A stretch of DNA of 64,000 nucleotides from Owenia fusiformis (taxonomy: Eukaryota; Annelida; Polychaeta; Sabellida; Oweniidae), in assembly GCA_903813345.2 (NCBI GenBank), contig CAIIXF020000004.1:13228196-13292195 (forward strand). Direction: 5' to 3'. Below are positions 40,734-63,115 of the stretch, in pieces; the first letter of the stretch is position 1; every line of letters starts with the position of its first letter. The notes beneath the pieces are model-generated. The model made no database searches. It saw nothing but the letters and a program-made list of their open reading frames with translations, and was not told the origin of the DNA. The position numbers and the translations under genes were made by a program.

Positions 40734-40868
40734 CGCATCATTATTAGGAGTAGTGTTATAAGACAAATTGCCCGGTGATTGTGTTTCATTTGTTTGTGGC
40801 CGAGGTCCTAAATCTTCAGCGACATCGTCTGGTAGTGGAGGTGGCGGAGGACATAAAAGACCACCCAT
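40734..40868 (-). pseudogene. Cluster gene relic, exon 1 only
   Basis: 45 codons starting MGGLLCPPPPPLPDDVAEDL, ending at a good phase-0 donor (GATGCG then GTAAGA). It matches exon 1 of the clustered family: Met-Gly, Cys6, poly-Pro, E-D-L-G, the SPGNLS block. No exon 2 is found downstream before 38.5 kb. The family's distal upstream block (TGATTGACATACTCAAAACA) is only 162 bp upstream here, against about 400 bp in the two neighbours. The TATA/TGACGTG core is missing, so a deletion of about 240 bp seems to have removed the promoter. Probably dead, unless an unseen exon 2 and promoter exist. Confidence 0.6.
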
Positions 40869-41556
40869 ATTTTTAAATCTTTCTTATATGTCTTAAATTG
40901 TAAGCGCTACCTTGTACTTTGTTATATCAGTGCAACAGCAAATCAAATTCCTCTAGCTTTCGAACTATTGATTTGTCTTCCTTTACATTGTTTTAAACTG
41001 AGGGACTTATGTCGACCGTAACAACAGGATGATTGACATACTCAAAACATATACTCCTTCTAAATTATAGACAGTCATTGGTCTTAGGGGGAAATGTATC
41101 TTCTAATTTCAACGTTATATAACTTACCTATTACTTAATTATCCGATTAGATGAGAATTTAATATTTTTGTTGATTCTCAGTTAACGTTTCAATCAACAA
41201 ATTAATACAGAAAAAGTATTTGTTGAGTATTAAAATATGTTTTGGTTACACTACATGTCATCATGGTATTTATTTTAATGGTGATTTATAAGAGACCTAC
41301 ATGGATAGATTGCAACCGTAATCATATTATGCTATTCATTGGTAAATCATTAGCGTCTCACAAATCACGCAAAACATTCAACCAAAACCTTTGCTAGTTC
41401 CGAAAATGTTAAGGCTGTGTGTTTATCTCTATAATACACTTGCGGTGGCCATCTTGGATTATGATGAAAACACAGAATGATCGACCGGGGACAAATCAGG
41501 TCTGTTTAAAAGCTGTCTAAGGATGTTTAAGGTTTATCGACCTTTGCCATACTTTG

Positions 41557-42291
41557 TAGCCGGAACAGAACAAGCGATCCATTTTTTTCCTGATAACTTT
41601 TTTTGATTTTCATCAATTTTTCACTAAATAAACTGAAAACCATTCCTAACATGAACATGTTTAACTCATAAATAATATTCCTTATAATTACAGCTTTTCA
41701 AAAATGATTGTCATATTGTGCTAATATACGAATTTTGCGTTTGTTGTTTGAAAATGATAAATTATCTTATTTTTCTTAATATAATAAGTATTGTCTTTAT
41801 TTCAATTAAAATCATATTTTTCTTAATATGACCTTTTACCATATGACACAAATAATTAAATGTGTTACCTATTTTTAAAACAGTGTATGTGTATTGACCC
41901 TGTTTAAGATGTAATATAAATTTAGACCCGATAAGTCAGGCCTATGCCTACCTGAGATATATTGTCATGCTGCTCTACTACTAATACAAAAATAGAAAAG
42001 TTTAGGGTCAGTGGAGCAGAATTACTTTATATATTATTAATTTATTAAAATAAATTGTATTATTTTAATAACTACAAGAATTGTCCTCCATCTCCAACAA
42101 AATTGTCCCTCAACAGAAGTTGGCAATCATTTTAAAAACCTGTCATTATAATCAAAATCCACTATGAGTAAAACAAACAATTTTGCAAAAATGCTTTATC
42201 GTTAATCCAGTCGAAATTCTATGAAGAATTAATGAGAATTGAAAATGTTATCAGGAAAAAAAGAGGTGGATGATTTGTTCTGTCCCGGCTA
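41557..42291. mobile_element. Non-autonomous TIR element, 735 bp
   Basis: The left arm TAGCCGGAACAGAACAAGCG continues to TTTCCTGATAAC. The right arm is its complement (GTTATCAGGAAAAA .. TTGTTCTGTCCCGGCTA). Arms are about 42 bp with a few mismatches. No frame resembling a transposase. It sits just downstream of the 42.75 kb exon 1 relic. Confidence 0.7.
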
Positions 42292-42616
42292 CTATAACGT
42301 TTTAAAAATAAAATTGTTACAAATGTATGTTCCAATAAAATAAAATCTAAATTTAAGTTTTAGATTTCCTTAATGAAATGTGCTTTTTAAGGTTAGATCG
42401 ATGGTAAGTCATACGTCTACTTAGTGAGTTGTAACAAGTGTACTTTCCATATCTCATATGGGCATGAGAAAAATGTCCCAATTACACGGGTACATAAGAT
42501 GCGTCCTCTGTATTCACATTTTCAAGCATTGATTTTAAAGGTAATTTAAGGCAATATTATGCATTTAAACGATTAAGTAAATTATTTACGATATTCTTTG
42601 TAGCGTATTTGTATCT

Positions 42617-42751
42617 TCACATGATGTTTGAACCATCACACAATTTAACATCAGACAAATTTACTGGAGATGGTATACAATTTATCTGTGCTCGACATCC
42701 TAAATCTTCAACATGATCGTCTTGTGATGGCGTTGAACAAACACAACCCAT
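42617..42751 (-). pseudogene. Cluster gene relic with lost splice donor (44 codons)
   Basis: Frame starts MGCVCSTPSQDDHVEDLGCR and has the family pattern (E-D-L-G, A-Q-I-N, SPVNLSD). Where the 47.16 kb paralogue has its donor (HA then GTAAGA), about 10 bases are missing here and the frame runs on to a TGA 14 codons later. No exon 2 is found downstream. The Met-Gly-Cys-x-Cys-Ser start is a textbook Src-family-like acylation signal and meets PROSITE PS00008, so a short lipidated peptide is conceivable, but loss of function is the simpler reading. Its promoter core (TATA, TGACGTG, ATTGG) is intact. Confidence 0.6.
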
Positions 42752-42840
42752 ATTTTTACTATCCAAATCTGTGAAATGCGCTTCAAAAGGAAAGACTTGG
42801 CGTATGGTGATCTCTGAAAACTTAGTCACTAACAGAAAAT

Positions 42841-42905
42841 TTATTGGTTATTGTTGAATGCAGTTTACAAGTGACGTGCTTTGATATAAAACACAATACT
42901 TCCTC
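42841..42905 (-). promoter_or_regulatory. Subfamily I promoter core (42.9 kb)
   Basis: On the minus strand: GAGGAAGTATTGTG, TTTTATATC (TATA-like, about 137 bp before the ATG), CACGTCAC (CRE/ATF-like) and a CCAAT box. The same order and spacing occur at 47381-47433. Confidence 0.5.
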
Positions 42906-44329
42906 AGACAAAGGAAAAAATGTATACGAGACATTATAGTTTAGACGTTTATATGAATCATATAAATATGCTAAGTGACCATGGATACGTAGCAGTCACT
43001 GCTGTATTATCAAAATGTACATTTGATAGGTGTCAGCAATAGGTGTTTATTTCTCTAAAAGAAGCCTGCAGGATTGCCAAATATGGATTTTTTAATTAAC
43101 AGAGCCCCAAAAGTTGACTCGAGGGAATTATGCCGGCTATAGTAACAGAATGATTGACATGCTCAAAACATATGCCCCATAAAATTCTAGACTGTGATAG
43201 GTCCTCCTAGGGGAATATTTATCTTCCTATCTCAATTCTACGTTCGTTCTTACCCATCGCTTATCTGTAATGTTTAAATAGGAATACACTACCCAAATTG
43301 CTGATAACTCTTAAGTCCGACTTAATATAATACTGGTTGGAGTAACATTAACATGTGGAATATCCAATTGAGACAGGTAATGAATTTCATCTCACTGTAA
43401 TTGAAAAGGGTAATGCACAGTTGCTTATTCGTAGGGAATATTGGAAACAAAAAATAAGTTCACTCTCTTAACTTTGTATTGCTTGTATAATTGTATAGAC
43501 TCCAGCAAGAATTTTTCTAAAATGTCAAAGGACGAGTCTCAGTTTGAGAACAGTCTCCTGGACTAATATTTTTATGAAAAATATAGAAATCCCACCCAAA
43601 TTAAATTATAAATATGTGTAAACTATCAAAATTGTCCAAAGCAGTCGTAACGTGCAGTAGATTGATGAATTTCGTTCTCCAAACCGAGACTAGCTTTAGA
43701 ATTATACCAATCGTTATTTAGTATAAAAAATATGCTCTTTTCCTGAGCAAACTATGATAAATATTCTAGGTGCATGTCAAAATACACAATAGAATAGTCT
43801 CCCAACTTCTTATATACAGCTAATATTATTACTATAGTATGTTTTTTACCTCTACGGATTTTGATCAGTATAATCTGGATAACTACATTATAAATATTTT
43901 GACATTTCTCACTAAACACGCTTGTTTTTTGAGAGAACATCACTAATGGTAACTTATAGATACCTTTAAGTTACTCAGTAACATTTTTCAAAAACTGGTT
44001 TATCCATTGCTTTTGAAAGACTTGTCAACAAGAGGCTAACTTTTTAGGACACCCAATATAAACGAAATGACAGTGTATTTTGGTATGGTTGCATACTTGT
44101 CTTGACGTTGTACTCTTGTCGGTTGTTTAACTAATAAAAACAGTTTTAATGTCTAATGATGAAGTATATATTATATTGAACAAACTAAAACAATGTAGAT
44201 TTAGACTTGACATGTTGTTTTTTATTTCAAATACAAATGTACAAAATATTAACAGTGTTTCTACTCGTGTTTTAATTTCAAATAAAATACTTTTTTGAAA
44301 TATGAATTCAAAAATATCAGTTTAAACGT

Positions 44330-44515
44330 ATAAGCGCATATATCCAAGGGAAAGGACCAGAAACTGTAAAGAAACTTAGTAAGAAATGAAAACTCGAATT
44401 GTGAACCTGTTGTTAGAAAAAGACCTAACGTGAACAAATAATGTCTAATACTCCCTCCCCTCCAATCGAGAACCAATTTCACAATCCAGAACCAGAACAC
44501 CAAGGAACATTTCAT
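44330..44515. repeat. Dispersed 200 bp repeat, copy 3 of 3
   Basis: Begins near CCAAGGGAAAGGACCAGAAA and ends GAACACCAAGGAAC; same orientation. It lies just downstream of the 44747-47273 gene. Confidence 0.65.
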
Positions 44516-44746
44516 TCATATTGAAATCATACATGTTGAAGGAAAATTAAGGCAATACTAATTAAGTCAATACTCATAAAAATAGTTGTAGATGATAGTA
44601 CTCAAATGATATAGCATTCAGTCTCACATTTTGTGTGATAGATAAAATCCAGTCTTGAAGTCCATATGCATTTCAAAGGCTCAACAATATTGTTCGGTAT
44701 GTGTAGATTCAAGACACCCATGGGAATATAATGGTAAATCTTGTCA

Positions 44747-47273
44747 TCAAGGATATCGTCCTCTGACTAAAGCTGCAAGGCATAGTCGGACCTGTACTTC
44801 TGAGTGACCTGATTTGTTCATCAAGCGTATTACAGTATGGGATCCATTTTGAACGAACTTCAGGATCTCAATGGACTTTTCTCTTGTGTTATATCCGTGG
44901 AAGTATTTATCAAATAAATCATTCACGTCGTGTCTTTTTTTGATGTAGTAGTCGTGGACATCGTCCGATTCCGAACACGTTTCGTACACACTCTTGAGAT
45001 CATCAATGGTCACCTGAAAGAAAAATGACATCGACGCTATACAGAAATATTTCTATCAAATAATTTTTTTTTCTAAAAGTACGTAATTCGTTTCGTTATT
45101 ATTTGATTTTACATTTTCGATTTATTTTGCATGATTTATTCATTTAATATTGGAGTCAATTAACCATTTACATATATTATGTGCAGGGCCATTTGCAATA
45201 ATCTGACATTCCGATATACAATTGTCATCCCTGTATTCTGAACTTGGGGATGGACTAATATATTGGTTTTAAAGATTATAACCAGTAATTGAACGAAGTC
45301 TAATAAATTAATTAACATACAGTTACAGTCACAAAAATCACATTTTGCATCTCACTTCTGAAAATGTTATATATTATGCCTGTGACTGGTGAGTATGACA
45401 TTTCAATCTACAAGTATATCACATTTAAATCGAGAGAAGAAATACTTGGCTTTTCTAGTATGTTGATCTTTATAATGACGTAACATTATTTTTCTAGATA
45501 CACTAGCTGGCTTATTGGTTGTAATATTCAGATATGACTGACAAACATGTTGTCTTTCTGGTTGATACTTTTTAAGATCAGAACTTAGATTCATACCACT
45601 CCATAACGGTTCAGAAAAACATAAAGATAATTGATGTTCGGCTCATAATTATGTCATCTGAAGGAGCATTGCGTTTTAACCCATAAAATATAACAAATAA
45701 ATCCACATTTACTAAGAATAACTGAAATGGCGGAACGAAATCATATTTGGAATTTTATTTGAATAACGACCTCCAATTTGAAACATATTGTTTAAAGCGC
45801 ATGATTCATAAACATGTAACAAATTATTAATCTTTGAAAATTAAGTAATGGAATTAAAAGGTATAAGGAAATCGGCAGTTTTTATGATTTCATCATTCAG
45901 TTGTTCAAGAAGATGAATTACAATGCTGAATTAAAAATATCAGTTTATCAAATCAAACATTTTTGACACATAGTGTTCATAAGAATTGTCCATATAAAAT
46001 GCATTTTGCTCAAACTTGTTTCATTTATTTTTATGTCACCACCAAAAAGTGGTGACATATTGTTATGGTCTCCGTTTTTTGACGGCGGTTGGCGAACGGC
46101 GTCTGTAACAAATTATTACAACTTCAAATAACTTAAAAAATACTGTTTAGACTGACTTCAATATTTATCAAAATCATCTACGTGTTTCCAGAAGTTCAAA
46201 TCTGACTTTATATCTAAGATTTGACCTTAAATTACCTATTCAAGGTCAAAAATGTATTTTTTTCAACTTGCTCCAAATTGACCTTTTTTCCAAATCATCT
46301 ACAAGTTATAAGAAGTTCAAATCTGACTTAAGATTTGAGATTTGACCTTCGTCCTTCAATGACCTTCTCAAGGTCAAGGTCCATAAAGGTCTATTTCAAC
46401 TTGCTTCAAATTGACCAATCTCTTTTTTCAAAATCATCTTCAAGTTTTCAGAAGTTCAAATCTGACTTTAGATTTGAGATTCAATGACCTTCTCAAGGTC
46501 AAAAAGGTATATTTCGACTTGTTTCAAATTGATCAATATTTTTTTCAAAATCATCTGCAAGTTCTCAATGACATTCTCAAGGTCAAAAAATATTTGACCT
46601 TCAATGACATTCTCAAAGTCGAAAGGTCTTTTTTTATCTTGCTTCAAATTGACCAATATTTTTTTCAAAATCATCTACAAGTTCTCAGAAGTTCAAATCT
46701 GACTTGAGATTTGAGATTTTACCTTCAATGACCTTCTCAGGGTCAAAGAGGTATTTTTACAACTTGCTTCAAAATGACCAATTTATTTTTTCAAAATTAC
46801 CTACAAGTTCTAAGAAATTCAAATCTGACTAAGATTGAACTCATTATATTGTGAGCAATAAGGTGGTAACATTTTGTCATTTTAATGCCTTGTCATTTAT
46901 GTTTTCATTGTTTCATAAACAGTTATATTATTTCTTAATATTTGCTCAAATTATCATTTCTACTATCAGACGCACCAGCTCTTGTAAGTATCGATAACAC
47001 TCACGAAAATCGTTGGATATTTTTTTTATTTATTCAGCAAGCATTTTTGAAACATGTTATTTATTGAACTGAAAATATGAAAATAAATTAATAAGTAATC
47101 AACGTTTTTCAATTCAAAACTTTATCAAATATATGATTTGAACGATCGTGTGTTCTTACCGCGTGGATATCAGACAAATTCCTTGGAGATCGTAGTTTAT
47201 TAATTTGTGCTTCAGATCCCAGTTTTCTAACGGGATCTTCTATTGGTGGAGGTGGACAAAAATAATTACCCAT
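44747..47273 (-). CDS. Cluster gene 1 (subfamily I), 2 exons
   Basis: 126-residue protein of unrecognised function. Exon 1, 47160-47273 (38 codons), begins MGNYFCPPPPIEDPVRKLGS and ends SPRNLSDIHA at GTAAGA. Exon 2, 44747-45013 (88 codons plus TGA), follows TTTCTTTCAG and encodes VTIDDLKSVYE, DDVHDYY, DVNDLFDKYFHG, NTREKSIEIL and the C-terminal VQVRLCLAALVRGRY, then P. Both junctions are phase 0. Features: Gly2 and Cys6 (possible acylation, though Pro7 breaks the standard myristoylation pattern), a proline tract that could bind SH3 or WW domains, and a predicted mostly helical domain without signal peptide or membrane segment. Likely cytosolic or membrane-tethered. The intron holds the 46033-46872 repeat. 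It is the best-preserved subfamily I member. Confidence 0.72.
46033..46872. mobile_element. Tandem-repeat-cored element with ATGTCACCACC ends
   Basis: Left end ATGTCACCACCAAAAAGTGG; right end is the complement of ATGTTACCACCT. Between them lie about six diverged 100-130 bp units carrying AGAAGTTCAAATCTGACTT, GATTTGACCTTC, TTCTCAAGGTCAAAA and AACTTGCTTCAAATTGACC. Inverted ends around a tandem core recall bivalve 'pearl'-type elements; that comparison is from general knowledge. Inside the intron of cluster gene 1. Confidence 0.65.
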
Positions 47274-47380
47274 TTTCTTGTCTAATTTTTCGTAATACTT
47301 CTCCAAAGAAGTAAACGTTGGCTTATGGTGGTCTAAGAACGGACACAAATCTGCTTTCTTGAATAGAGATTTTCTTGATT

Positions 47381-47433
47381 TTTATTGGATACAGTTGACA
47401 GATGACGTGTTGGAATATAAACACATTACTTCC
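47381..47433 (-). promoter_or_regulatory. Subfamily I promoter core (47.4 kb)
   Basis: Minus strand: GGAAGTAATGTGTTTATATT (TATA-like, about 145 bp before the ATG), CCAACACGTCATC (CRE/ATF-like), then CCAATAA. Conserved with 42841-42905. Confidence 0.5.
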
Positions 47434-48374
47434 CACTGATAAATAAAGAGACGACACATTATATCAAGATGAATTATCTAAAATGTTCTTTCACCATGGG
47501 TATATGTAGCATTCACTGTTAGATTACCAGTATGTACATTTGTTGATCGATTTAACTTTTAGAACGGTTTATTATTTAGAAGTCTGTATGATCGTCACCG
47601 ATGTCTATCGATTTTTTTCCAAAACTTACCGAGCCTTAAAAGCTGATTGGAGTGACAAGTGCAGAGTGTTGTAACAGATTGATTGACATTCTCAAATCAT
47701 GCTCCTACTTAATTCTATACTGTAACAGGTCCTAGGGGTGGAGTTCCAATGAGGTATTTCTTACCTGTTGCTAAACTGTATTATTAAGAAAGAGTCATAC
47801 TTTCAGATTTGCTGAGAACTCAGTAGTAGAACTTAACATTATTTGGAGTAACGTTCACATTTCGATTGCTTCATATAAGATAAGTAATGAATTAAGTCCA
47901 CTTTATTGAAATTAAAAAGGGGGGATACACATATGCTAATGTATATACATATATGTATATTTATGAAATATGACAACACCTCACAACAATAAGTTCACCT
48001 TCTTAACTTTGTATTGTGTAAATTATATAAACTAATGCAATAATGATTTGTCAAATGTCCAATTTAAAATAAAACTCCATCAATCGTTATATTCACAGTG
48101 TATTATCAATAATGTGTTATTTTACAAGCATTTTTGAAAATATCAGTTCACAATGACTGACTTATTCTTAGGTTCATTTTTTCGAGCATACTGTGAAAAT
48201 ATTCTCTTGAGAACCAGGGCATGTTATAAAGTTTATAGATAAATGACCTCTCAACTGCTAAATATACAGTTCGTGTTGAGTTCTACGATGCCCCAAAAGT
48301 CAATCCCTTGATTATCAACCAAAATGCGTTCGCCCTACTAAAGCAAGTGTGAAACCATCAAAAATATATTTGTT

Positions 48375-48480
48375 ATGTCATCACCAAAAGTGGTTACATA
48401 TTGTTATGATCTACGTTTTTGTGACGGCGGTTGACGTCCGGCGGTCGGTGTCTGTAACATATGACATGTGGTGTTATTTT
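48375..48480. repeat. Fragment of the ATGTCACCACC element
   Basis: ATGTCATCACCAAAAGTGGT, then TTACATATTGTTATG, TTGTGACGGCGGTTGACG and GTGTCTGTAACA match the left 105 bp of 46033-46872. Confidence 0.65.
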
Positions 48481-48907
48481 GCATGTTAATACTTGAATAC
48501 TTACATATTGGATGTAGGAAAATTGAAAAATGGGAATCAGTTGTCCTGTTATTTTATGTGCTCTTTGAAAAAGTAACAAGTAACACTTCCAATTTCCTCG
48601 TGGATATACATTTAAAAAGTTTGCAATTTCTAATTTGACAATCTTTCCATCTGTGGCAGAGATAAAATCGTTATACAAGGATTATTATAGGCTTTGTAGA
48701 ATCTAAAGAGAATTGTCTATACAGGTGAGACGTATGATGTTAGTAAAACAGAACAATAAATTTTTGAGTTTACGAATTTCCAATGTATAACTTCTTCAAG
48801 TAAACAGAATCTTTGAGTTTAACTAAGAATATATCAAAAACTAGGTAATATCAAACAATAAGCAGTTGAGTCAAAATTTCATCATTTACCTAAATGATTT
48901 TTGATCA

Positions 48908-50688: not shown

Positions 50689-52521
50689 TTAGTATCGTCC
50701 TCTAACTAAAGCGGCTAAGCACAATCGGACCTGTACTTGTGTATGACGAGTATACGTCATCAACTTTTTGACAGTGTTGTATCCCCTACGTACAAGGTCC
50801 AAGATTTCATAGGATTTTTCCCTTGCATTAGCTCCATGAAGATGTTTATCAAACAAATCATTCACATCATTACGTAATTCCAAGTAATACTCATGTACAT
50901 CATCATCCTTAGGGTATGTTTTATAGACCCTCCTGAGTTCATCAATGGACCTACTCTGAAAGCAAAATTATATACCTTTAGACCTTAAATCAGAAATACA
51001 TGGGTAACAAAACTACAAGTATTATTCACTCCAACTATAGTACGGCATACAGTAGCTGCGTTGGAACACACCAGGATTCCTTGTTTTTATGAGATTTTGA
51101 CACCATACAATGTATGTGTATATATATGCAATAATTTTTGTTAATCAAATACGGATTTTATTTAGTTATTACTGAATTTGATGTTTAATTTGTTTTGCAC
51201 GATAATTAGAAATAAAATCATGGCTGACAATAAGAAACTCAATAATGGGAAAATATTCATTTCTACATCTTTTGACCTTACCAGCACCTTTGGCACGTTG
51301 TCATATCGTGTATTTAATTTTGAATGGCAATCTAATCTGTTTATTTTAGGCTTTACATGTGTGCCAAATATTTGGGCAAAATTTCTAAAAAATGACAAAG
51401 ATATGAGGAAAATTTAGGGCTGCCGTTTTTTTACCACCCTGTAACATTATAACTGCTATGATATCACATATCAAACCCGTTTGTCCATATTTCATTATTT
51501 ATCTTCAAGCATGATCAATCAATCATAAGTAATGAAAAATCAACCTCAAATCGAATCAATACATAAGGACATTATCGGTATTGGTTTCTGACAACGCTTG
51601 TTGATATTACAGATAGAAAAAAGTTGAAGAGTTATATATTATCAAAAAGTTATTGTTCAATAAACCTAACAAGTACTTGGGTAAGCGACGTATTAAGAAC
51701 ACTGGACGTGCAAATCAAGAGGATGTAAATGTACCAATTAGGAGAATGAAACTACGCTTTTAAAAAGATTATTCTTTACTTTAACGTTATCTTATTTTTC
51801 ATTAACATTTACGATATCGATCGTATGAAATGATTACGCATGCGCGCGTTATTATGCCAATGTCTAGCATAAGAAAGTAGTTCCGTCCTAAAATCGATGA
51901 ATACCGCTCTACTTAACATCAGCGATTTGACGAACATCGACACATCTACCAGTCATTGAAAAGAATGCTGCAAAACTGTTCGAATTTTTCAACGAATGAA
52001 ATCCAGAAATCAGTTATATAGGTATAAATAGCAAGTTAATTGTCAACATAATGCCTTCGACATTACATTCGGATTAATGGATAAACGGAGGAAATGTATA
52101 TATAGATTCTGTCAGGTAACATATTTTAAATATATTTTGCGTTTTGATTAAGAAACAAATACGTTCTGGTCAACAAGAGGCAGACGCAGGGTAACCCATC
52201 GCCAATTTTTCTAGAAAGCTGTGAGTTCAGACGATTCCTTCTTTTTGGAACAAAGGAAATGAAATGTTATGCTTCGCCTATCTGTGAATCCTACCTGTGA
52301 CTCTCATATTGATATTTTTAATTATTGCATTAAGAAGATAAGTTCGAAATAACTATTATTAATTAATTTAAATTATTTCTTTATATCATTTTGATAATTT
52401 TGGGTATACTTCTTACCCCATCAACTTGATCTCTAGGTGATTGATATAAATTTGGCTGTGCTGCAGTTCCATATTCTTCAGTTACAACTGCTCTCTCTTG
52501 GGGTTGATTTGATTGTCCCAT
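50689..52521 (-). CDS. Cluster gene 2 (subfamily I exon 2), 2 exons
   Basis: 123-residue protein of unrecognised function. Exon 1, 52417-52521 (35 codons), starts MGQSNQPQERAVVTEEYGTA and ends SPRDQVDG at GTAAGA. Exon 2, 50689-50955 (88 codons plus TAA), follows TTGCTTTCAG: SRSIDELRRVYKTYPKDD, DVHEYY, NDVNDLFDKHLHG, NAREKSYEILDLV and VQVRLCLAALVRGRY. Exon 2 has the same length as gene 1. Exon 1 is intermediate: Met-Gly as in subfamily I, but no Cys and no poly-Pro, and E-Y-G-T-A-A as in subfamily II. Gln at position 6 makes myristoylation unlikely. A TATA box and CCAAT box lie about 110-130 bp upstream. Confidence 0.72.
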
Positions 52522-52627
52522 TTTATTTAATTTATACTAATTTCTATTTAATTATACTATTATTGTTAACTACTGTTGATTAAGTAATAAATCTTAATTG
52601 CAAATAATCTTCGGGAAACACCCCCGG

Positions 52628-52655: not shown

Positions 52656-52922
52656 CAGATCAACACATCTGGTATTAAGGGATTCCCCATTCCTTGACCA
52701 TGGACAATTCTAGAATATCATTTGATGAATTTATTATATTCTTCCATCAGGTTTATCATAATGTCTAACATGAAACCATATTTATTTCAAAACCGGAATC
52801 TACGAACAACATTTCGTGCCAGGTATTTTTGTTAAAATTTGGAAGACAAAAAGCAATTAAAATGTCTTACCAAAATCTCCCTCCGGAAGTCCTGTCATGC
52901 TGAAATAAAGGGGCAATGACCG

Positions 52923-53408
52923 TTGATCATCATTAAATGTCTTCATATAAAGACACGTGCCATTTATTACATTGTGTCGGTACAGTTGTTTCTGTTGATA
53001 CTGGGAATATATTTATGGTATCTTAATATATTGAAATCTTACTATTTTGTAAATATGGCTCGGGGTCAAACAGGATCTTTTGAATTGGTTAATAATGGAC
53101 TTCTTCACTGGATTTCGTCTATCCCACATCATTTGAGGCATTTTATGAGAACTAATATTTACAACCATATTTCATGTTATGAGTATTGGCTATCAATTTT
53201 TCATTTTTTCTTAAATATGTATCGTAATAATTTCATTATGAATAAAATGTCACTCGGTTTTCTGGTCCTGGATTGTGATTTTGGTTCTCGATTGGAAGGG
53301 AACGGGGTGTTAGACAGCATTTATTTTTACGTTAGACAGTTGTTTTTTGGATATGTAGGGTATTTTCCTAATGACCGTCATACACTAAGAGTTTGCTTTG
53401 CTTACTAG
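52923..53408 (+). other. Orphan 161-codon ORF, unrecognised
   Basis: One of the longest open frames in the window outside the LINE. It has a hydrophobic N-terminal stretch (residues about 16-35, VSVQLFLLILGIYLWYLNIL) that could be a signal anchor, and an internal Met at codon 45 (MARGQTGSFELVNN). The body is rich in Tyr, Phe and Asn. It lies on the opposite strand to the gene cluster, between genes 2 and 3. No domain is recognised and no splice partner is seen. A chance frame or an old transposon piece remain possible. Confidence 0.25.
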
Positions 53409-53880
53409 GTTTTTCAACAGTTTTTGCTCCTTTCCCTTTGGGATTTGTGCTCAGATGTATATTTGTTTCCTATGAAAGATGATTTTTAAGGAATTCCTGA
53501 AAACAAAACAAGTTCCCATCATCCTATCTCAGCCATACTCCGATCACATCGATTTTTGCACGAAACATGGTTTTTATCCATACCCATAGCTATTACGATT
53601 ACAAAATATATCCGGAGGTGGTTTGACCATCCGACCCCTACCCGCATTCGGTTTAAAAGTCTGAGAATTTAATGAAGGGACCTCGGGTTTTCCCCATTAA
53701 GGTTTGTACAATTATTACAATAATTATTTTGTGGCCCATGATTTATTTTGTCTCACAAAGGAACGTTGCGTATTTAAAACAACACATAGATTTTATGTCA
53801 TCAAATTATTAGCAGAAATGTATAACATGTGGACACTACATGTACATATTATTAACTGAACGTTGGATTCGTCAATAAAT

Positions 53881-54828
53881 TTAATTTTTAACAGAGAAAC
53901 GTCCATGTAAAACAGCTGCAACACTCAAACGAATCTTGTCTGTACTATAGGTGGTGAAACTATTCATGTCTTTCATTGTTGGATAGTCTTTAATATTGTT
54001 GAAAACTTTTCTCGCCATGTCGATGCTAACTTTGTATTCTTCGATAAGCTTGCGCCCACGCTCCTGACCCCCATCTAAATAGTATTGATGAATTTCATCT
54101 GTTGTGATCAAGTCGCTGTTGTATAAAGCGACTAAGTCCTTCGTTTCTTGTTCCTGAAAAAATAAACGTACAGCGTAAAACTGAAGGATATAATTTAGTG
54201 TGTTGCTCAAATATTGTCACATTATCTAAAATTCCTCTACTCGCAACTTTTATTGTTGTGTAGATCACTAGAATTAAAGGGACACAGCAATACTGAAAAT
54301 TGTGGTGTAGGAATGAATATAATTAAGAAAGTAGACCCGACCATAATAAATAAAATATTTCAACTTCTTCCGAAAGGATATTATTTTAAGATGCGGTTTA
54401 GAACAAATTGATAGAAACGGCTTAACGTAAATTTTATATATAAGGCAAAATGTTAATAAATTGAATAATTCCATTGGACTTCAATACAACACGAAAATAT
54501 AAACACATGACATAGCTTATTGAAATTTGGAATTATTATTGCATTGGATAAGTTGTATGTGTGTTAGTACTGGTATTAAATCAAAGATCAAAACAGGACG
54601 GCAAAACAGAACAATGTGAATATTAATAAGTAGTTTTGTTGGTATTAATAAAATTCATATATTCAGAATACAAAATTGATTTCATTAACATATTAATAAT
54701 AACGAAGTTAATTTAATTACCGTCAAATTTTCAGAATAGGATTTTGGCTGAATATGATTTCTCGCTGCTCCAGAACCATAGTCAGTAGCATCTTGTTGTT
54801 GTACTGCGGGCGTGTTTGTTTCAGGCAT
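53881..54828 (-). CDS. Cluster gene 3 (subfamily II), 2 exons
   Basis: 126-residue protein of unrecognised function. Exon 1, 54721-54828 (36 codons), starts MPETNTPAVQQQDATDYGSG and ends PKSYSENLT at GTAATT. Exon 2, 53881-54153 (90 codons plus TAA), follows TATTTTTTCAG: EQETKDLVALYNSD, TTDEIHQYYLDGG, IDMARKVFNNIKDYPTM, YSTDKIRLSVAAVLHGRFSV, then KN. Gly2 is absent, so no myristoylation. The intron is 567 bp. The TATA box is about 107 bp upstream of the ATG and a shared octamer module sits about 200 bp upstream. The 3' flank (TTTGTGGCCCATGATTTATT) is paralogous to that of gene 4, showing whole-unit duplication. Confidence 0.75.
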
Positions 54829-54930
54829 AATATCGCTTATTTCCTAAATCCTTATTGGTAAATCTTAATTAACTGAACTATAGAAGGCTTCAGATGGAAA
54901 CAATTTACTATGAAACAAATTCAAATGAGC

Positions 54931-55029
54931 CTTATATATATGTATATATATACATATATATCATACTATGCAATGAGATCATACGATGATTAGAAACCTT
55001 AGTCTCCGCCCTATTTGTGTGATTTGCAT
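54931..55029 (-). promoter_or_regulatory. Promoter module of cluster gene 3
   Basis: Minus strand order: TTATGCAAATC (octamer ATGCAAAT at 55022-55029), AGGGCGGAGACTAAGG (GC box), CGTATGATCTCATTGC, and further down TATATATAAGG (TATA). Shared with genes 4 and 5. Confidence 0.55.
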
Positions 55030-55149
55030 AAAATTAAAACAATGGTATTAGTAGTTTTATTCATGATGGGCATTATTTATTATAAGGATATCTCTGAAAA
55101 CAGGAAAGACGGCAGCTCTGTTTCACATAACTATTTAAGGTATGACTAA

Positions 55150-55265
55150 ATTATAGTTAATGTAGTTGCGTGTATCATACCTTCACAGTTACGTGGGCAC
55201 ACCAATAATGTTACAGTTCTTGGTCTGGGTTCAACTCCCAGGTAGCTGGGTATGCTTGCATCATG
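55150..55265 (+). repeat. tRNA-like block upstream of gene 3
   Basis: CATACC..GGTATG ends enclose CTGGGTTCAACTCCCAG, a perfect T-arm-like hairpin with a B-box-like GGTTCAACTCC. Probably the head of an old tRNA-derived SINE. Copies sit at the same relative place upstream of genes 4 and 5; a half copy is at 55338-55388. Confidence 0.5.
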
Positions 55266-56267
55266 TATACAAGTGTTAGTTTTTCAAATCAAATGTCATT
55301 ACATTGCAATCTATCTAATGTATCATCGTTTCCAGTGCGTAGACACACCAAGAATGTTACAGTATTTGGTCTGGGTTCAGGTTGAAGTGCTATTAATACC
55401 AAGTAAACGAAGATATCTATCATTTTGTCACAGCTATAATCTCATTTAAATTTCGATAAATAAAATGTATAAGGTTGGAAAGAAGCGTTGAATAAACAGA
55501 CAGTGCAGTACAGTTTGGGAGGATATTTCGATGATACATGCATAGCATTGAAATTGCAACGAAATCACATCGATTTGTCATTCAATCCATCAGCTGCAAC
55601 AGGTTTTACTTGAGGTTAATAATAGAATCCCTTGTCATTTAATAGTACCAAAAATAGGATATACTGTGCTATATATGTTGTAGGTAGAATTATTTTAAAC
55701 TACCTCGTTACATTTTGCTGGGAGTAGAATTGCTTCTCATTAAAAACCAGGGTTTCAATTTTTTGACAGCGAAGGAGGATACCAAAAATCCATGCCCACC
55801 CCTTCCAGGAATTTGATTGGTTCTCTGAATCATTTCGGCCATCTCCGTGATATAAGCATCTTCGGCCATCTTCGTGAAGTGACTTGAGATTCATCTAGCT
55901 GATTTCGGACCGCAGTCGAAGATGGCTGAAGATCTAACCCTAACCCTCCAAGGAATTCGATAGGTTCCTTGAAGCATCTTCGGCAATTCTTGTGATATAA
56001 ACATCTTCGATTGTCTTCATTTGTGCTTCCCGTGTGTGGCTTTAACTATCATCTACTTGTCCACAATAATCTAACATCCCGATGTGTATTTATCATTCCT
56101 GTATTCTGAACATGGGGGTAGATTGATATATTGGTTTCGAAGATTAGTAGCCAGAATTGCCAGAAAATATGGCAGGTAGAGGACTGTTATTACATTTAAC
56201 ACTGTCTTTTGGGAAATATTAACTTCGAAATGACTTATTTAATCAGTGACAAGGATCATATTAGTGC

Positions 56268-56492
56268 CTAGGTCACATTTGCTCCGATTCAGCGGCCGGC
56301 GACTTGCCGATCGAGTAGTATGTTCAAAATTAAAGGTCAAATCTCAAATTTGAGGTCAGATGTGAACTCCTGAGAACTTGTACATGCTTTTAAAAAAGGT
56401 TTTGTCAGTTTGATGGAATTCGAAATCAGTTTTGAACAGAATACTGCAATCGGCCGGGCGCCGGCCGATTAATCGGGGTAAATGTGACCTAG
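56268..56492. mobile_element. MITE with CTAGGTCACATTT ends, 225 bp
   Basis: The left arm CTAGGTCACATTTGCTCCGA plus a GGCCGGCG block is complementary to the right arm (CGGCCGATTAATCGGGGTAA, then ATGTGACCTAG). Arms are about 35 bp. Confidence 0.75.
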
Positions 56493-56892
56493 ACATAAAT
56501 CATATTAGCCGGGATGACTGCTCAGACTCACATATAAATCAAAAATGAGGGATATATCAAAATGTGTATGTTGACATAACAGTGTGGATGTTTTCTGGAC
56601 TGCCATTTCTTGATATAACTGACAAGATACATGATTTGTTCTTAGAGTTCTGAGAATTTAGGGAATAAGATCTCAGTTTCCTTCCATAGATGTTGAGAAA
56701 ACATAACAATGAAATTTTTGCGGTCCATAATTTATTTTGTCATATAAAGGAACATTGCATATTAAAACATATCAAATGGCTTTAAAACGCCGAGAAATAC
56801 AATTGAGGTTATCAGAAAGTGCATAAAGTGTATATCATGCGTTAATTGTGCATACATCTCATTGTTTTCAATAGGCCATCAAGCCGTTTGGT

Positions 56893-58193
56893 TCAAACCG
56901 AGAAACGTCCATGTAAAATGGTTGCGACAATCAATCGAATCCTGTCTGTACTATAGGTTCTGCCTCTGCGGGTGGTGAAACTTTGCATTGCATATATCGT
57001 CGGATAGCTTTTAATATTTTTGGAAACCTCCCTCGCCATAACGATGTTAACTTCGTGTTTTTCGATAAGCCAACGATCGAGGTTTATGCCTCCGTCTCCG
57101 TCTAGATAGTACTGGTGAATATAATCAGTTGTTGTGACCCCTCCCGATTCACTGTTGTATAATTTAACAAGATCGTCCTTTTGATCTTCCTGAAACATAA
57201 ACGTACAAAATACTATAAAACTAAAGGGAAAAACTTAAAGTTACTCTTTGTTTTTGGCTCTATAATGTAAAGCTTAGCACTCTGGGCTTGTCAAGCCAAG
57301 GTCCTGGATTCAACCCCAGGATGTGGCAAAAGGAGCCAGCTTGGTAGTTGATTACTGTGCTACTAACTCGATACTAAAAGGCTGAGTTGGCTTGAGTTGG
57401 CTGTCGGTTGTCCTAGTCAGGATAAAGATACTAGTTCCTGTCAGATTAATGCGGGGAGCTGGTTCTACCTTGAGATATTAATTAATTTCATTATCCTACC
57501 ACACTTATACGCCTTGTGGTGTCTGTGTGAGATAATTGGAACTTAAATGAAATCAAATCAAATCACGTGTTATTAAGACGTACTCTCTATCAATCATTGC
57601 GTTTTTTCGATGAATAGTATATAATTTGGATTGTCGATTCTTTACAATAACTGGAATCAAAGGGTTACAACAACTCATACAAAATGGAGTATGAAAGAAT
57701 GTGGCTTATCAAGAAAGTAGATCCGACCGTAAACAAATATTTTAAAGTTTATTGCGTTTGTGTTATTTCAAAATATAACTTCGGACAAACTGATAGATAA
57801 AGTTAAAAGTAAATCTTATTAAAGGCACAACTTTGTCAAGAATTAAAATATTTTACTGAATTTGGATGCAATACTAACAAATACCGCAACGGATAACTAA
57901 AGCAATTGGGGATATGTGTCGCATTTGATATATGTTTAGGTATGTAAAGACTAATGTAAGAATGAAGGTCGATCAGCTGAACCATAACAATAAACAGTTT
58001 AATAAATATTAATTAAAATAGCATTTTCACAATAAGAGTCTTATTTACATAATGATAACAAATAATTTTGTTAAAAATAACTTACCGTCAAGTATTCAGA
58101 ATATGATTTCGGCAGAATTAGATTTACCGCTGCTCCAGAACCATAGTTAGGAACGTATATTTGTTTAGATCTGGGTATGTTAGGCCGAGCCAT
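56893..58193 (-). CDS. Cluster gene 4 (subfamily II), 2 exons
   Basis: 134-residue protein of unrecognised function. Exon 1, 58086-58193 (36 codons), starts MARPNIPRSKQIYVPNYGSG and ends PKSYSEYLT at GTAAGT. Exon 2, 56893-57189 (98 codons plus TGA), follows TTTATGTTTCAG: EDQKDDLVKLYNSE, TTDYIHQYYLDGDGG, VMAREVSKNIKSYPTI, RTYSTDRIRLIVATILHGRF, then SV. It has the longest exon 2 of the cluster, through small insertions (GG after NSES, and RRGR before TYSTD). The 896 bp intron contains a tRNA-derived SINE. The TATA-like CAAATATACG is about 105 bp upstream, and the octamer/GC-box module is kept. Confidence 0.75.
57255..57545 (+). mobile_element. tRNA-derived SINE in intron of gene 4
   Basis: The head GGCTCTATAATGTAAAGCTT .. 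GGGCTTGTCAAGCC .. CCTGGATTCAACCCCAGG has a good T-arm hairpin and B box. The body includes GAGTTGGCTGTCGGTTGTCC, and the tail ends in AAATGAAATCAAATCAAATC. The tail alone also starts duplicated unit B at 60947, so the duplication breakpoint lies in this SINE. Confidence 0.65.
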
Positions 58194-58293
58194 TCTTTCG
58201 CTTATTTTAAATGTTCTGTTAATAAATCCTAATTAACTGATTTACAAATGCATCAGATGGAAAAACTTTACTCTGGAACTGATGCAATTGCGC

Positions 58294-58376
58294 GTATATT
58301 TGTGCTTCGAAGGAGGCGATGAGATCATAAGATGCTGGGAATACCTTAATCCACGCCCCATTTAGTTCATTTGCAT
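58294..58376 (-). promoter_or_regulatory. Promoter module of cluster gene 4
   Basis: Minus strand: TTATGCAAATGAAC (octamer, 58369-58376), TGGGGCGTGG (GC/CACCC box), AGGTATTCCCAGCATC (Rel-like half match) and CAAATATACGCGCAATTGC (TATA-like). Confidence 0.55.
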
Positions 58377-58784
58377 AAAAATAAAACAATCGTTTTAGTA
58401 TTTATGATTAAGATAAATTTATTATAAGAATTATAATGAAGACAAAAAATATAGTAACTTTATTTTAACTTTATTGAATGTTTATTTTATTATTTTTTAA
58501 TAATCAGTACTTGTTAGGCTCGCTATTAAACCATGACACGTTCAAGAAGTACAGGGCGAGACAATAACTTGTTTGATTTTTAAGGATACCTTATACATAA
58601 TACATCAAAAAATAGTCATGCATTCGACAATTAAAGAATATTTATTTTTGTCTTTATGGTTATGTGAGTATATTGATGGTTTCAAACAGAACTTTTTCTG
58701 TTTTTCATGAAGACATTCTCAGATCGAACGGTTGAATCACAAAGTAATAAACAGGGTATAGTTAAGATAGTTGGAAAATATAAA

Positions 58785-58905
58785 ATTGATGAAGTTAATG
58801 TAGTTACGTGTAACATACCTTCACAGTTACGTGGGCACACTAAGAATGTTACAATTCTTGGTCTGGGTTCAACTCCCAGGTAGCTTGGTATGCTTATATC
58901 ATATA
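58785..58905 (+). repeat. tRNA-like block upstream of gene 4
   Basis: Same CATACC..CTGGGTTCAACTCCCAG..GGTATG structure as at 55150-55265. It was carried by unit duplication and not by fresh insertion. Confidence 0.5.
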
Positions 58906-59019
58906 CACCATATACAGCTGTAATCATTTCCTTCCACTATGTCATGCTTTTTATGCAAATTTTGATATAAATCAAGTCAGTGAAACAGATAAAGCTACTT
59001 TTATGGGTGTAGTCAGGAT

Positions 59020-59255
59020 TGATTGAGGCAAAATTGATAATGCTTCGACTCGATAAAGAATAAACATGGATAGTCATAGCAATGTTGTATTCGTTCCCAT
59101 GTTCTTGATATTTTTAAACGAGTGATGTCACAAGTAAATCTCATCTTGCACGTGTGACTTTTTAGAATGAAAGATGGCAAGATCGTGCAAGGGGTAAATA
59201 TGGCTGTATCTTTGTTAGTCATATGAGAAAGGGTTATGTTATGCATACTGTACTC
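59020..59255. repeat. Dispersed repeat, copy in duplicated unit A
   Basis: Nearly identical to 62375-62625 through the local segmental duplication; a diverged third copy lies at 26370-26590. Confidence 0.65.
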
Positions 59256-59477
59256 TATAAAGTGAAGAAGAGGAATTTTTACTGTCCCACTCTGTAGGTT
59301 TTCTTGTATTTATATTTACTATACAACAAACAAACTACAAATACGCTGTTTTTACTAAATTATATATTTCATCTAAATACATTTCATTTCTAAATTAAAT
59401 TTTTGTTCGGAGGTTGAAAATGTAAAGTCTATCTTTATGAAATGTTCAATTTGTTGTACACCATTTGTAGATCGATA

Positions 59478-60546
59478 CAGGGTGTTCCAAAAGTAACATA
59501 TTTTGTCAATTTTGCACTGAGTGTCTTCGAATTTTTACAAATTGTACTTTGAAGTATTGCAACTAAAATTGTTTCAAGTAAAACTAAAAAAAAGTTTCAG
59601 AAAAAATGATGAAATGCGGTTAGAGTTATGGTTACTATAGTAACGTGACATCCCAATACCCGGGGCAACTTTTTTCCTGAAAATGTGATATCTAATATTT
59701 TTGTATTACTGAAGAAAGTATCTAATTCACCTATTATAATACAACATTTTTTTGTTTATTTTATAAGTTGCTTTGTTGTAAAATGTTGCTAAACAACTCA
59801 GATTCAAGTATAATTTCATAATGCTAACATTTATTCAATTTCCTTGAATGTCACTATGTATAACAGTCTGAACAATTCATGGTTGAGTTTTGAAAATACC
59901 CAATTTGGAGCCAGTCATCCACCTTGATAGCGTGCCTGCCCGCAGGTCACCATTACAGACCATGCAGCTATAGAGGAGCTAGGTCTTGAGGTCTAAAACC
60001 ATGCACCATGCTCTTCTGATAATGCAACATCTAATTTTTACTTATATTAAGAACGGAATGCTAATCAGTGCTGTACGACCTTTAAAGATGAGAATGACCT
60101 TCTCCAAATTGTCAAATCGACCCTGCGTGACATGTCCTCAAATGGGCTCACTCATGTGTTTGGGTCATGGATACAGAGTACTACTCTTGTACTGACCAAA
60201 GAGGAGCCTATTTCAAAGTAGAGGATACATAGGAATATAAAATGATGTAAAACAAATGTAATTCCCACCAGATGTTGCATTTCAACTTTGATATGGCATG
60301 TACAAAATGATATGGGATGTACAAAATGCTTAATGTCTCTGTAACTTTTTGCGTGGAATGTTTCCCCGGGTATTGCGATGTCACGTTACTATAGCAACCA
60401 TAACTCTACCCGAGTTTCAGATATTTTGTTGAAACTTTGCAGTCTTAGTAACGATACATGAAAGTACATTATGTAATATTTTGGAGACGATTGGTGCATA
60501 TTTAACAAAATGCCAGCACCAGTCCTGTTACTTTTGGAACACCCTG
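59478..60546. mobile_element. Tc1/mariner-like MITE, 1069 bp
   Basis: Ends CAGGGTGTTCCAAAAGTAAC and complement, with TA on both sides. A second inverted block (CTATAGTAACGTGACATCCC near 59636 and its complement near 60376-60395) lengthens the arms. No intact transposase frame. The paralogous DNA at 62.8 kb lacks it, so it inserted after the tandem duplication. Its right end lies only 43 bp past the stop codon of gene 5. Confidence 0.85.
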
Positions 60547-60588
60547 TATGCTGTACCGAACATTTGTACTATTGTACTATCATAATAT

Positions 60589-61619
60589 TCACTTTTTAAC
60601 TTTAAAACGCCCGTGCAAGATTGCGGCTACCACAAGCCTAATTGTGTTTGTACGATGGCGAGTGACCTCTCTCATTTTAGTCATTGTAGGATATTCCCAA
60701 ATGTTTTCGAAGACATCAATTGCCGTTTCTAGGGTAACAACTGTACTGTCGTTAATCCTTTTCCTTAGGTTACTTTCGAGGATGCCATCTTTATAGTAGT
60801 TATGTATATCGTCAGCAACACTAATCGTGTGGCTCTCATAGAGAGCTCTTAGGGCGGCCTTTTCTGCAGACTGCAATTATAATATAACATGATATACAGA
60901 TGGAGAAATGTTCATTTTAGGCTTATAAGAGATGTACATGTAGAAAGTGTGAGATAATTGTAACTCAAATGAAATCAAATCAAATCACATGTTATTTAGA
61001 CTTACTCTCTATTGATCATTGCGTTTTTTTCGATAAATAGTATATAATTTGGATTGTCGATTCTCTACAATAACTGGAATCAAAGGTTTACACCAATACA
61101 TACGAAATGGAGTATGAATGAATGTGGCTTATCAAGAAAGTAGATCCGACCGTAAACAAATATTTTAAAGTTTATTGCGTTTGTGTTATTTCGAAATATA
61201 ATTTTGGACAAACTGATAGTTAAAGTTAAAGATAAATCTTATTAAAGACACGACTTTGTCAAGAATTGAAATATTTTACTGAATTTGGATGCAATACATA
61301 TAAATACCGAAATGGATAACTAAAGCATTTTGGGATATGTATCGCATTTGATACATTTTAAGGTATGTAAAAAATTATGTAAAAAATGAAGATCGAAAGA
61401 GCATCGAAAAACTGAACCATAACAATAAAGTTTAATAAATATCGATTAAAATAGCATTTTCAGAATAAGAGTTTTATTAACATAATGATAATAAATAATT
61501 TTGTTTAAAATAAGTTACCGTCAAATCATCAGAATATGATTTCGGCTGAATTGGATTTACCACTGCTCCAGAACCATGGTTAGAATTTTTCCTTTAGTTC
61601 CGGGAATGTTCAATGCCAT
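60589..61619 (-). pseudogene. Cluster gene 5 (subfamily II), exon 1 frameshifted
   Basis: Exon 2 (60589-60870, 93 codons plus TGA) is intact: SAEKAALRALYESHTISVAD, DIHNYYKDG, SNLRKRIND, ETAIDVFENIWEYPTM, RTNTIRLVVAAILHGRFKVK, then K. Exon 1 (61519-61619) matches gene 4 exon 1 but is 101 nt and not 108. Starting at ATG GCA the frame shifts near the middle and meets a stop (LEQW then TAA), while the downstream frame would read NHGSGAVVNP and PKSYSDDLT up to a GTAACT donor. No in-frame upstream start is seen. Either the gene is newly broken, another start or 5' exon is used, or the assembly has an indel. Promoter module and exon 2 look under constraint, so I keep the gene/pseudogene status open. 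Confidence 0.6.
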
Positions 61620-61720
61620 TCTATCGCTTATTTTAAAATCCGAATTCCTAATTTCTAATTAACTGATTCACAAATGCTTCAGATGGAAAAACTTTACTCT
61701 GGAACTGATGCGATTGCGCG

Positions 61721-61802
61721 TTTATTTATGCTTCATGCGAGGTGATGAAATCATAAGATGCTGGGAATACCCAAATTCACGCCCCATTTTGTTCATTTGC
61801 AT
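61721..61802 (-). promoter_or_regulatory. Promoter module of cluster gene 5
   Basis: Minus strand: TTATGCAAATGAAC (octamer, 61795-61802), TGGGGCGTG, GGGTATTCCCAGCATC (its complement GGGAATACCC fits the Dorsal/Rel pattern GGGWWWWCCM) and GCATAAATAAACGCGCAATC (TATA-like, about 106 bp before the ATG). Confidence 0.55.
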
Positions 61803-62124
61803 AAAAATAAAACAATCGTTTTAGTATTTATGATTAATATAAACGTTATTTATTTTAAGAATAATACTAAAGACAAAAAGAAACTTTATTTTAATTTTAT
61901 TGAATGTTTAATTTATCATTTTTTACTAATAACCAGTAATACATCAAAAAATAATCATGCATTCGACAATTAAAGAATATTTATTTTTGTTTTTATGGTT
62001 ATGTGAGTATATTGATGGTTTCAAACAGAACTTTTTCTGTTTTTCATGAAGATATTCTCAGATCGAACGGTTGTATCACAAAGTAATAAACAGGGTATGG
62101 TTAAGACGGTGGGGAAAATACAAA

Positions 62125-62245
62125 ATTAGTATAGTTAATGTAGTTACGTGTAACATACCTTCACAGTTACGTGGGCACACTAGGAATGTTACAATTCTTG
62201 GTCTGGGTTCAACTCCCAGGTAGCTTGGTATGCTTATATCATATA
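62125..62245 (+). repeat. tRNA-like block upstream of gene 5
   Basis: Third copy of the CATACC..CTGGGTTCAACTCCCAG..GGTATG block, in duplicated unit B. Confidence 0.5.
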
Positions 62246-62374
62246 CAGCATATACAACTGTAAACATTTCCTTCCACTATGTCATGCTATTTTCATGCAA
62301 ATTTTGAGATATATCAAGTCAGTGGAACGGATAAAACTACTTTCCTGGGTGTAGTCAGGATTGATTGAGGCAAA

Positions 62375-62625
62375 TTGATAATTCTTCGATACGATAAAGA
62401 ATAAACATGGATAGTCATAGCAATGTTGTATTCGTTCCCATGTTGTTGATATTTTTAAACGAGTGATGTCACAAGTAAATCTCATCTTGCTCGTGTGACT
62501 TTTTAGAATGAAAGATGGCAATATCTTGCATGAGGTAAATATGGCTGTATCTTTGTTAGTCATATGAGAAAGGGTTATGTTATGCATACAGTATTGTACT
62601 CTACAAAATGAAGAAGCGGACATTT
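62375..62625. repeat. Dispersed repeat, copy in duplicated unit B
   Basis: Partner of 59020-59255; the shared blocks include GAATAAACATGGATAGTCAT and ATGGCTGTATCTTTGTTAGT. Confidence 0.65.
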
Positions 62626-62833
62626 TACTGTCCCACTCTGTAGGTTTTCTTGTATTTTATATTTACTTTCCAACAAACAAACCTTAAATACGTTGTTTTT
62701 ACTAAATTATATTTCATCTAATTACATTTCATTTTTGTTCGGAGGTTGAAAATGTAAAGTCTATCTTTATGAAATGTTCAATGTTGAACAGCATTTGTAG
62801 ATCGATATATTGTACAAGGAACTATCATAATAT

Positions 62834-63115
62834 TCACGTTTTAACTTTAAAACGCCCGTGCAAGATTGCGGCTACCACAAGCCTGATTGTGTTTGTACGA
62901 TGGCGAGTGACCTCTTTCATTTCAGTCATTGTTGGATATTCTCCAACGTATTTGAAGACATAAATTGCCGTTTCTAGGGTAACAACTGTACTGTCGTTAA
63001 TCCTTTTCCTTAGGTTACTTTCGAGGATGCCATCTTTATAGTAGTTATGTATATCGTCAGCAACACTAATCGTATGGCTTTCATAGAGAGCTCTTAAGGC
63101 GGCCTTTTCTGCAGG
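62834..63115 (-). CDS. Cluster gene 6 (subfamily II), exon 2 only, partial
   Basis: 93 codons plus stop after the acceptor TATGATTGCAG. Begins PAEKAALRALYESHTISVAD and ends RTNTIRLVVAAILHGRFKVK, then T. It differs from gene 5 exon 2 at 9 of 93 residues, seven of them packed in one stretch (DVFENIWEYPTMTKMREV against YVFKYVGEYPTMTEMKEV). The reading frame is intact. No family-type exon 1 is found between 63115 and 64000. Introns in the cluster range from about 0.57 to 2.1 kb, so exon 1 is likely just past the window edge. Confidence 0.7.
   Translation of the reverse strand, partial: PAEKAALRALYESHTISVADDIHNYYKDGILESNLRKRINDSTVVTLETAIYVFKYVGEYPTMTEMKEVTRHRTNTIRLVVAAILHGRFKVKT

Follow-up and report, generated by a model that had tools for sequence, protein, structure and literature searches.

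We analysed a window of 64,000 nucleotides (the whole stretch of DNA given here) from the annelid Owenia fusiformis, at 13228196-13292195 on contig C4 (CAIIXF020000004.1), and found on its minus strand an array of six copies of a domain-encoding second exon (exon 2) and seven leader exons, spread over eight loci. Judged from its sequence, the cluster very probably consists of real genes, and exon 2 is under purifying selection. Taken as a whole, we read the array as a tandem birth-and-death family of small genes, probably restricted to one lineage, with a helical domain possibly binding nucleic acid, a tentative reading whose chance falls somewhat short of even. A preliminary description of the same DNA had proposed eight two-exon loci as real, fast-turnover genes between 40734 and 63115. 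The span is correct (exon 2 of locus f starts at 63115), and turnover of real genes is supported by the purifying selection on exon 2, the conserved splice sites and the presence of broken beside complete copies. The eight loci are not equal, however: four (a, b, c and d) follow the two-exon plan in full, and the other four are visibly incomplete.

Organisation of the gene cluster

In the complete genes the order on the minus strand is promoter, leader exon, intron and last exon. Their products are about 123-134 amino acids (aa) long, and the coordinates give introns of ~2.1 kb in a, ~1.5 kb in b, ~0.57 kb in c and ~0.9 kb in d. The parts of the array are as follows, with a slash at the exon end of each donor.

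38674-38774, minus strand: possible remnant of the promoter of one more dead leader locus (nhmmer E 0.013, 10.7 bits; aligns to the 42.7k and 47.3k promoters)
40734-40868, minus strand: 40.8k leader exon, 45 codons, MGGLLCPPPP... (leader hidden Markov model E 3.3e-19; donor GCG/GTAAGA intact)
42647-42751, minus strand: 42.7k leader exon relic, MGCVCSTP... (homologous donor position GTT/AAATTG, donor lost)
44747-45013, minus strand: gene a exon 2, 88 codons and stop TGA (exon-2 profile; acceptor TTTCTTTCAG)
47160-47273, minus strand: gene a leader exon, 38 codons, MGNYFCPPPP... (donor GCG/GTAAGA)
50689-50955, minus strand: gene b exon 2, 88 codons and stop TAA (exon-2 profile; confident AlphaFold2 model)
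52417-52521, minus strand: gene b leader exon, 35 codons, MGQSNQP... (donor GGG/GTAAGA)
53881-54153, minus strand: gene c exon 2, 90 codons and stop TAA (exon-2 profile)
54721-54828, minus strand: gene c leader exon, 36 codons, MPETNTP... (donor ACG/GTAATT)
56893-57189, minus strand: gene d exon 2, 98 codons and stop TGA (exon-2 profile)
58086-58193, minus strand: gene d leader exon, 36 codons, MARPNIP... (donor ACG/GTAAGT)
60589-60870, minus strand: locus e exon 2, open, 93 codons and stop TGA (exon-2 profile)
61519-61619, minus strand: locus e leader, a copy of the gene d leader with its frame broken between ATG and donor (donor ACG/GTAACT)
62834-63115, minus strand: locus f exon 2, open, 93 codons and stop TGA (exon-2 profile)
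57525-60948, no strand assigned: tandem duplication unit A, with the d leader and e exon 2 (blastn blocks, sliding identity; copied as unit B, 60947-63193)

The six exon-2 frames matched the family profile on the minus strand with E values of 2e-41 to 3e-35, compared with 0.1 for the best other frame among 2131 stop-free frames of at least 20 residues in the window. These values speak for coherence and are not an independent test, since the same six copies built the profile. Protein identity in exon 2 is 60 percent between a and b, 64 percent between c and d and 91 percent between e and f, and falls to 20-29 percent when a or b is compared with any of c-f. The motif D-[DE]-[IV]-H-x-Y-Y had been described in the middle of the domain; the family is coherent, but copy d reads DYIHQYY, and the second position is therefore not confined to D or E. 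A further exon-2 candidate at 39932-40117 was not accepted (9.7 bits, covering 27 of the 88 positions).

All seven leader exons matched the leader profile, with E 1e-22 to 2e-18 for those six from which it was made and 6e-6 for the e leader, and an alignment of six leaders has a core around G-x-x-[AP]-x-x-N that is common even across subgroups. The lengths given earlier, 35-45 codons for the leader and 88-98 for the domain exon, agree with ours. GT donors in phase 0, the phase proposed earlier, are present in six of the seven leaders, the exception being the 42.7k leader, and an AG directly precedes every one of the six exon 2s. Prompted by leaders that begin MG with a nearby cysteine, the leader translations were also inspected by eye for N-terminal myristoylation. 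Only the 42.7k relic, among four MG leaders, fits the pattern G-{EDRKHPFYW}-x-x-[STAGCN]-{P}; those of genes a and b fail it, and c and d have no G2. No signal peptide was apparent by eye in the products of the complete genes, which are therefore probably intracellular.

Conservation of promoters, another feature on which the preliminary description had relied, was found within subgroups, and no single promoter is common to all loci. The octamer ATGCAAAT lies upstream of the ATG by 201 bases in c and 183 in both d and e, followed by a GGGCG block, and the informative comparison is that of c with d, since d and e are duplicates of each other. The 42.7k and 47.3k leaders have a common upstream block, different from that of c, d and e, and part of this stretch seems to survive at 38.7k. 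Gene b has a TATAAA 116 bases upstream of its ATG. At the 3' ends, the nearest AATAAA lies 151 bases from the stop codon in b, 136 in c and 159 in d; it is 523 bases away in a (with ATTAAA at 473) and 756 in e, and locus f has none within 800 bases of its stop.

At locus e, the leader frame that starts at the ATG is closed by a stop codon ahead of the donor, and no ATG opens the frame in register with exon 2. For locus f, neither the leader protein profile nor leader DNA profiles turned up a leader in 40 kb of sequence past the window, and protein and DNA profiles found no exon 2 for the 40.8k and 42.7k leaders. The promoter-like stretch at 38674-38774, in which no leader coding sequence was recognised, may be a ninth, dead locus.

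Three pairs of duplicate blocks were found by blastn: 57525-58504 and 60947-61930 (86.8 percent identity), 58598-59477 and 61937-62807 (91.7 percent), and 60576-60948 and 62821-63193, which hold the e and f exon 2s (95.7 percent DNA identity over 373 bp). They represent a tandem duplication with a unit of ~2.2 kb, carrying the d leader and e exon 2. Since the leader that accompanies the e exon 2 is a copy of that of d, locus e has on the map the look of a chimera made by the duplication. Unit A also holds an element of ~1.07 kb (59475-60549) with perfect 24-base terminal inverted repeats, ATACAGGGTGTTCCAAAAGTAACA, at 59475-59498 and 60526-60549, and a second, internal inverted repeat; the element was probably inserted after the duplication because it is absent from unit B. 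Minus-strand open frames at 59013-59309 (98 aa) and 62282-62656 (124 aa) occupy corresponding places of the duplicated unit, and the latter had no Pfam match at E 0.01.

Selection on the two exons

Exon-2 sequences were fitted with the Goldman-Yang codon model, and pairwise nonsynonymous (dN) and synonymous (dS) rates were calculated with NG86. For the six exon 2s the model gave an omega of 0.197 and a kappa of 1.51, with a log likelihood (lnL) of -1573.88 compared with at best -1612.0 at omega 1; for c, d, e and f, omega was 0.258 (lnL -1001.60 compared with -1016.49 at omega 1). Substitution at the neutral rate, which the preliminary description had named as evidence that would speak against the genes, was thus not borne out for exon 2. 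Pairwise, dN was 0.28 and dS 1.63 for a/b (dN/dS 0.17), and 0.25 and 0.78 for c/d (dN/dS 0.31); seven of the eight exon-2 pairs between a/b and c-f were saturated at synonymous sites.

The leader is not conserved like the domain. Leader dN/dS was 0.59 for a/b (dN 0.60, dS 1.01) and 0.83 for c/d (dN 0.33, dS 0.40), against the 0.17 and 0.31 of the corresponding exon 2s, and spanned 0.47-1.39 in the pairs with finite dS, 14 of 15 (relic leaders included, the e leader excluded). Constraint therefore sits mainly in the exon-2 domain and less in the leader.

The case for working genes is weakened by this low constraint on the leader, and by two further points. The e/f exon 2s have a dN/dS of 0.40, although with ~6 synonymous and 9 nonsynonymous changes the ratio means little, and in this pair the exon shows no higher conservation than the intron next to it.

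Relatives, predicted fold and possible function

Known families were searched with the exon-2 domain, and no row reached the cut-off in Pfam (six whole domains and six C-terminal halves) or in NCBIfam (five of the six copies), in agreement with the earlier statement that the domain could not be placed. EF-hand_FSTL1 (E 0.0058) and DUF6834_C (0.007) appeared below the Pfam cut-off for copy a only and were rejected. With the whole-domain profile, PDB sequences gave nothing below E 1.5; an ankyrin-repeat chain (E 0.009) and designed helical proteins, found with the half-domain of copy a (the one half used in that search), were read as helical-repeat noise. In the animal's own genome (498 Mb, 525 contigs), queries with exon 2 of e, b, c, a and d (f was not used) gave convincing matches in this cluster only, counts that are lower bounds. 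Three other places, L022 (E 1.46), L023 (7.59) and L028 (0.777), reached at best 11.2 bits over 21 positions against the profile and were rejected. Neither the 29 pattern matches in viral contigs nor the 22 in prokaryote genomes included a confirmed relative, and phages queried with copy c gave none. Papers listed for general terms on orphan tandem gene families do not name this family in their titles or opening abstract lines; it may be in print under another name.

AlphaFold2 with copy b placed first among the six sequences gave a predicted local distance difference test score (pLDDT) of 87.9, a predicted template modelling score (pTM) of 0.81 and six helices, at residues 2-12, 21-25, 32-40, 45-57, 63-70 and 74-85. 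The exon-2 product is quite probably a compact six-helix domain, a prediction that is confident for copy b only.

The last three helices resemble a helix-turn-helix (HTH) weakly, in ways none of which is significant by itself. Among 50 of the 64 PDB rows returned by Foldseek for the copy-b model, six had a query template modelling (TM) score of at least 0.38, namely a sigma factor (0.47), an archaeal RNA polymerase chain (0.43) and four MarR-type regulators (0.39 each), two assigned by title and two that we take to be of this type. HTH_9 was the sole Pfam row for the C-terminal half of copy b (E 0.082, 13.5 bits). By hhalign, the C-terminal halves scored 12.8 against an alignment of the N-terminal 100 residues from nine E. 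coli K-12 regulators (IclR, MhpR, AllR, KdgR, PlaR, XynR, Lrp, AsnC and DecR), compared with 8.8 ± 1.9 (maximum 17.2) for 150 column shuffles and 9.6 for the reversed profile, a hint that does not exceed about two standard deviations. The default alignment covers the first helix of the motif, and a looser setting extends it through the second into the third with a three-column gap.

A good deal speaks against this resemblance, and some of it against the fold. The same six sequences with copy c first gave a poor model (pLDDT 56.1, pTM 0.44), also with six helices, and in Foldseek neither model matched anything in PDB, nor model b anything among viral predictions, at E 0.001 or better. A retroviral matrix row (HIV-2 p17, E 8.5), seen with the poor copy-c model only, was treated as noise. 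The six HTH-like rows have root mean square deviations of 7-17 angstroms, and by E value only one of the ten best rows, the first, is an HTH protein by title; the likeness is a hint chosen after the fact, because most rows by E value are unrelated helical proteins. In Pfam, the 13.5 bits of HTH_9 compare with a cut-off of 23.4 and come from one of six C-terminal halves, and the rows for two others, GP11 (c, E 0.075) and DUF2860 (e, E 0.19), which with HTH_9 complete the rows for these halves, are not HTH families. The hhalign score lies inside the shuffle range with 18 columns aligned at default settings, and the whole domain scored lower still (11.9, with shuffles at 9.1 ± 1.9, maximum 15.4, and the reversed profile at 11.1).

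In the account we prefer, tandem duplication would have led to the birth and death of small protein-coding genes, probably within one lineage. The first exon would supply a variable tail of 35-38 residues, probably disordered, which is spliced in phase 0 to the last exon, the predicted six-helix domain of 88-98 residues and the constrained part. In copy b, helices 45-57, 63-70 and 74-85 are spaced like an HTH and might form a face that binds a partner, for which nucleic acid would be our likeliest single guess, and the tail might tune partner or location. That the domain does bind nucleic acid is less likely than not. Improbable, in turn, is the boldest form of this account, in which a six-helix unit with an HTH at its end arose within one lineage as a new animal domain family and gave a cluster of rapid turnover, encoding small proteins that bind DNA or RNA (as regulators or in genome defence) and have rapidly changing N-terminal tails.

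The strongest alternative makes the domain a helical module for protein-protein interaction, new or unrecognised in its fold and without any role in nucleic-acid binding, the HTH look being a coincidence of three short helices. The failure to find any structure at E 0.001 or better fits this, as does the hydrophobic last helix (VRLCLAALV, IRLVVAAIL), which by eye is more core-like than a typical recognition helix, and although no partner has positive evidence we regard such a module as a serious possibility, if not quite an even one.

Helix spacing had first suggested a CARD or death fold, and a divergent CARD-like adaptor that recruits through its variable tail and belongs to a cluster for innate immunity would suit the six helices of both models. 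The genome contains at least 38 CARD-domain matches (for example L029-L058; contigs C1-C10 and C266), several of them paired on contig C3, which amounts to a large CARD repertoire, and a plus-strand exon in the same window (17607-18038) encodes a fibrinogen C-terminal domain (Pfam E 2.2e-32). Against an alignment of 29 of the 38 CARD matches (30 were given as loci and one shorter match was left out), hhalign scored 12.8, within the range of 200 shuffles (10.1 ± 2.1, maximum 16.9) and below the reversed profile (17.0). Death-fold titles were absent among 50 of the 64 PDB rows for the confident copy-b model, and Pfam gave no CARD, DED or Death row. We therefore consider such an adaptor very unlikely.

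Similarly slim is the chance that few or none of the copies are alive, their open frames being left over from a recently functional family. Half of the loci are visibly incomplete, and the leader ratios of 0.59 (a/b), 0.83 (c/d) and 0.47-1.39 overall are those such a family might have; yet a-d have kept their frames, donors, acceptors and stops despite an exon-2 dS of 1.63 (a/b) and 0.78 (c/d), and b, c and d keep a nearby AATAAA.

The least probable explanation, that the copies are what is left of a transposon or other mobile element, its coding exons having been captured here, draws on mobile-element-like sequences around and inside the array (6899-8656; 59475-60549) and on one PHROG row for copy b (E 0.0008 over 35 residues), but it is countered by the spliced plan with its exon-2 constraint, by the lack of dispersed copies (five of the six copies, as queries, match convincingly only here, so the family is not a multi-copy transposon), by a 381-base stretch of leader and promoter that matches three places in the genome, all in this cluster, and by the want of any confirmed relative in viral contigs, prokaryote genomes or, for copy c, phages. 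The PHROG row itself (37816, unknown function; residues 12-46) was rejected, as it was not seen in the other five copies. The sequence at 6899-8656 is a minus-strand frame of 585 codons that reads by eye like a long interspersed element (LINE) reverse transcriptase, and a frame of 1045 codons beyond the window (71595-74729) has a similar look, also named by eye.

Surrounding sequence and known systems

Several other features lie among the genes. A tandem repeat of ~120 bases at 46159-46836 (Tandem Repeats Finder array 46385-46823, 3.6 copies) contains several AAGGTCA/TGACCTT motifs, which we take to resemble nuclear-receptor half sites, and related sequence lies in reverse at 56329-56413. A short repeat with a look of short interspersed elements occurs at 55152-55264, 58793-58902 and 62130-62242, the first copy being ~92 percent identical to each of the others; at gathering scores, Rfam matched nothing in the window. 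Between genes b and c a plus-strand open frame (52920-53408, 162 aa), with no Pfam match, may be repeat-derived because part of it (53227-53316) recurs inverted at 44442-44530.

Families that look like orphans and have a confident fold prediction offer a good opportunity to study the origin of new folded domains. Here a constrained domain and a weakly constrained tail, with complete and broken copies side by side, make the contrast between them testable. If the HTH reading is true, this is an animal nucleic-acid-binding family absent from the libraries searched; if it fails, the cluster is well documented but ordinary.

With winged-helix and HTH domains (IclR, AsnC/Lrp, sigma factors and HTH_9 of RPC82) the exon-2 domain, as predicted for copy b, would share three consecutive helices and a three-residue gap before the last (63-70 and 74-85), together with a weak profile and structure resemblance and no significant match in sequence or structure. 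It differs in that its chain stops shortly after the third helix, with hardly any space for a wing, and in its three extra front helices and hydrophobic last helix. With the CARD and death folds it has in common a length of ~90 residues and six (predicted) helices, without profile support or a structure match among the listed rows. Taxonomically restricted (orphan) tandem gene families exist in animals, and two of their features are found here, several related genes side by side and protein-coding constraint, in this case on exon 2. Small proteins, few exons, a single cluster, broken beside complete copies and no match in curated libraries are likewise common to both, and no structural feature sets this cluster apart from them. 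The type of cluster is thus a familiar one, that of an ordinary, young-looking orphan gene cluster.

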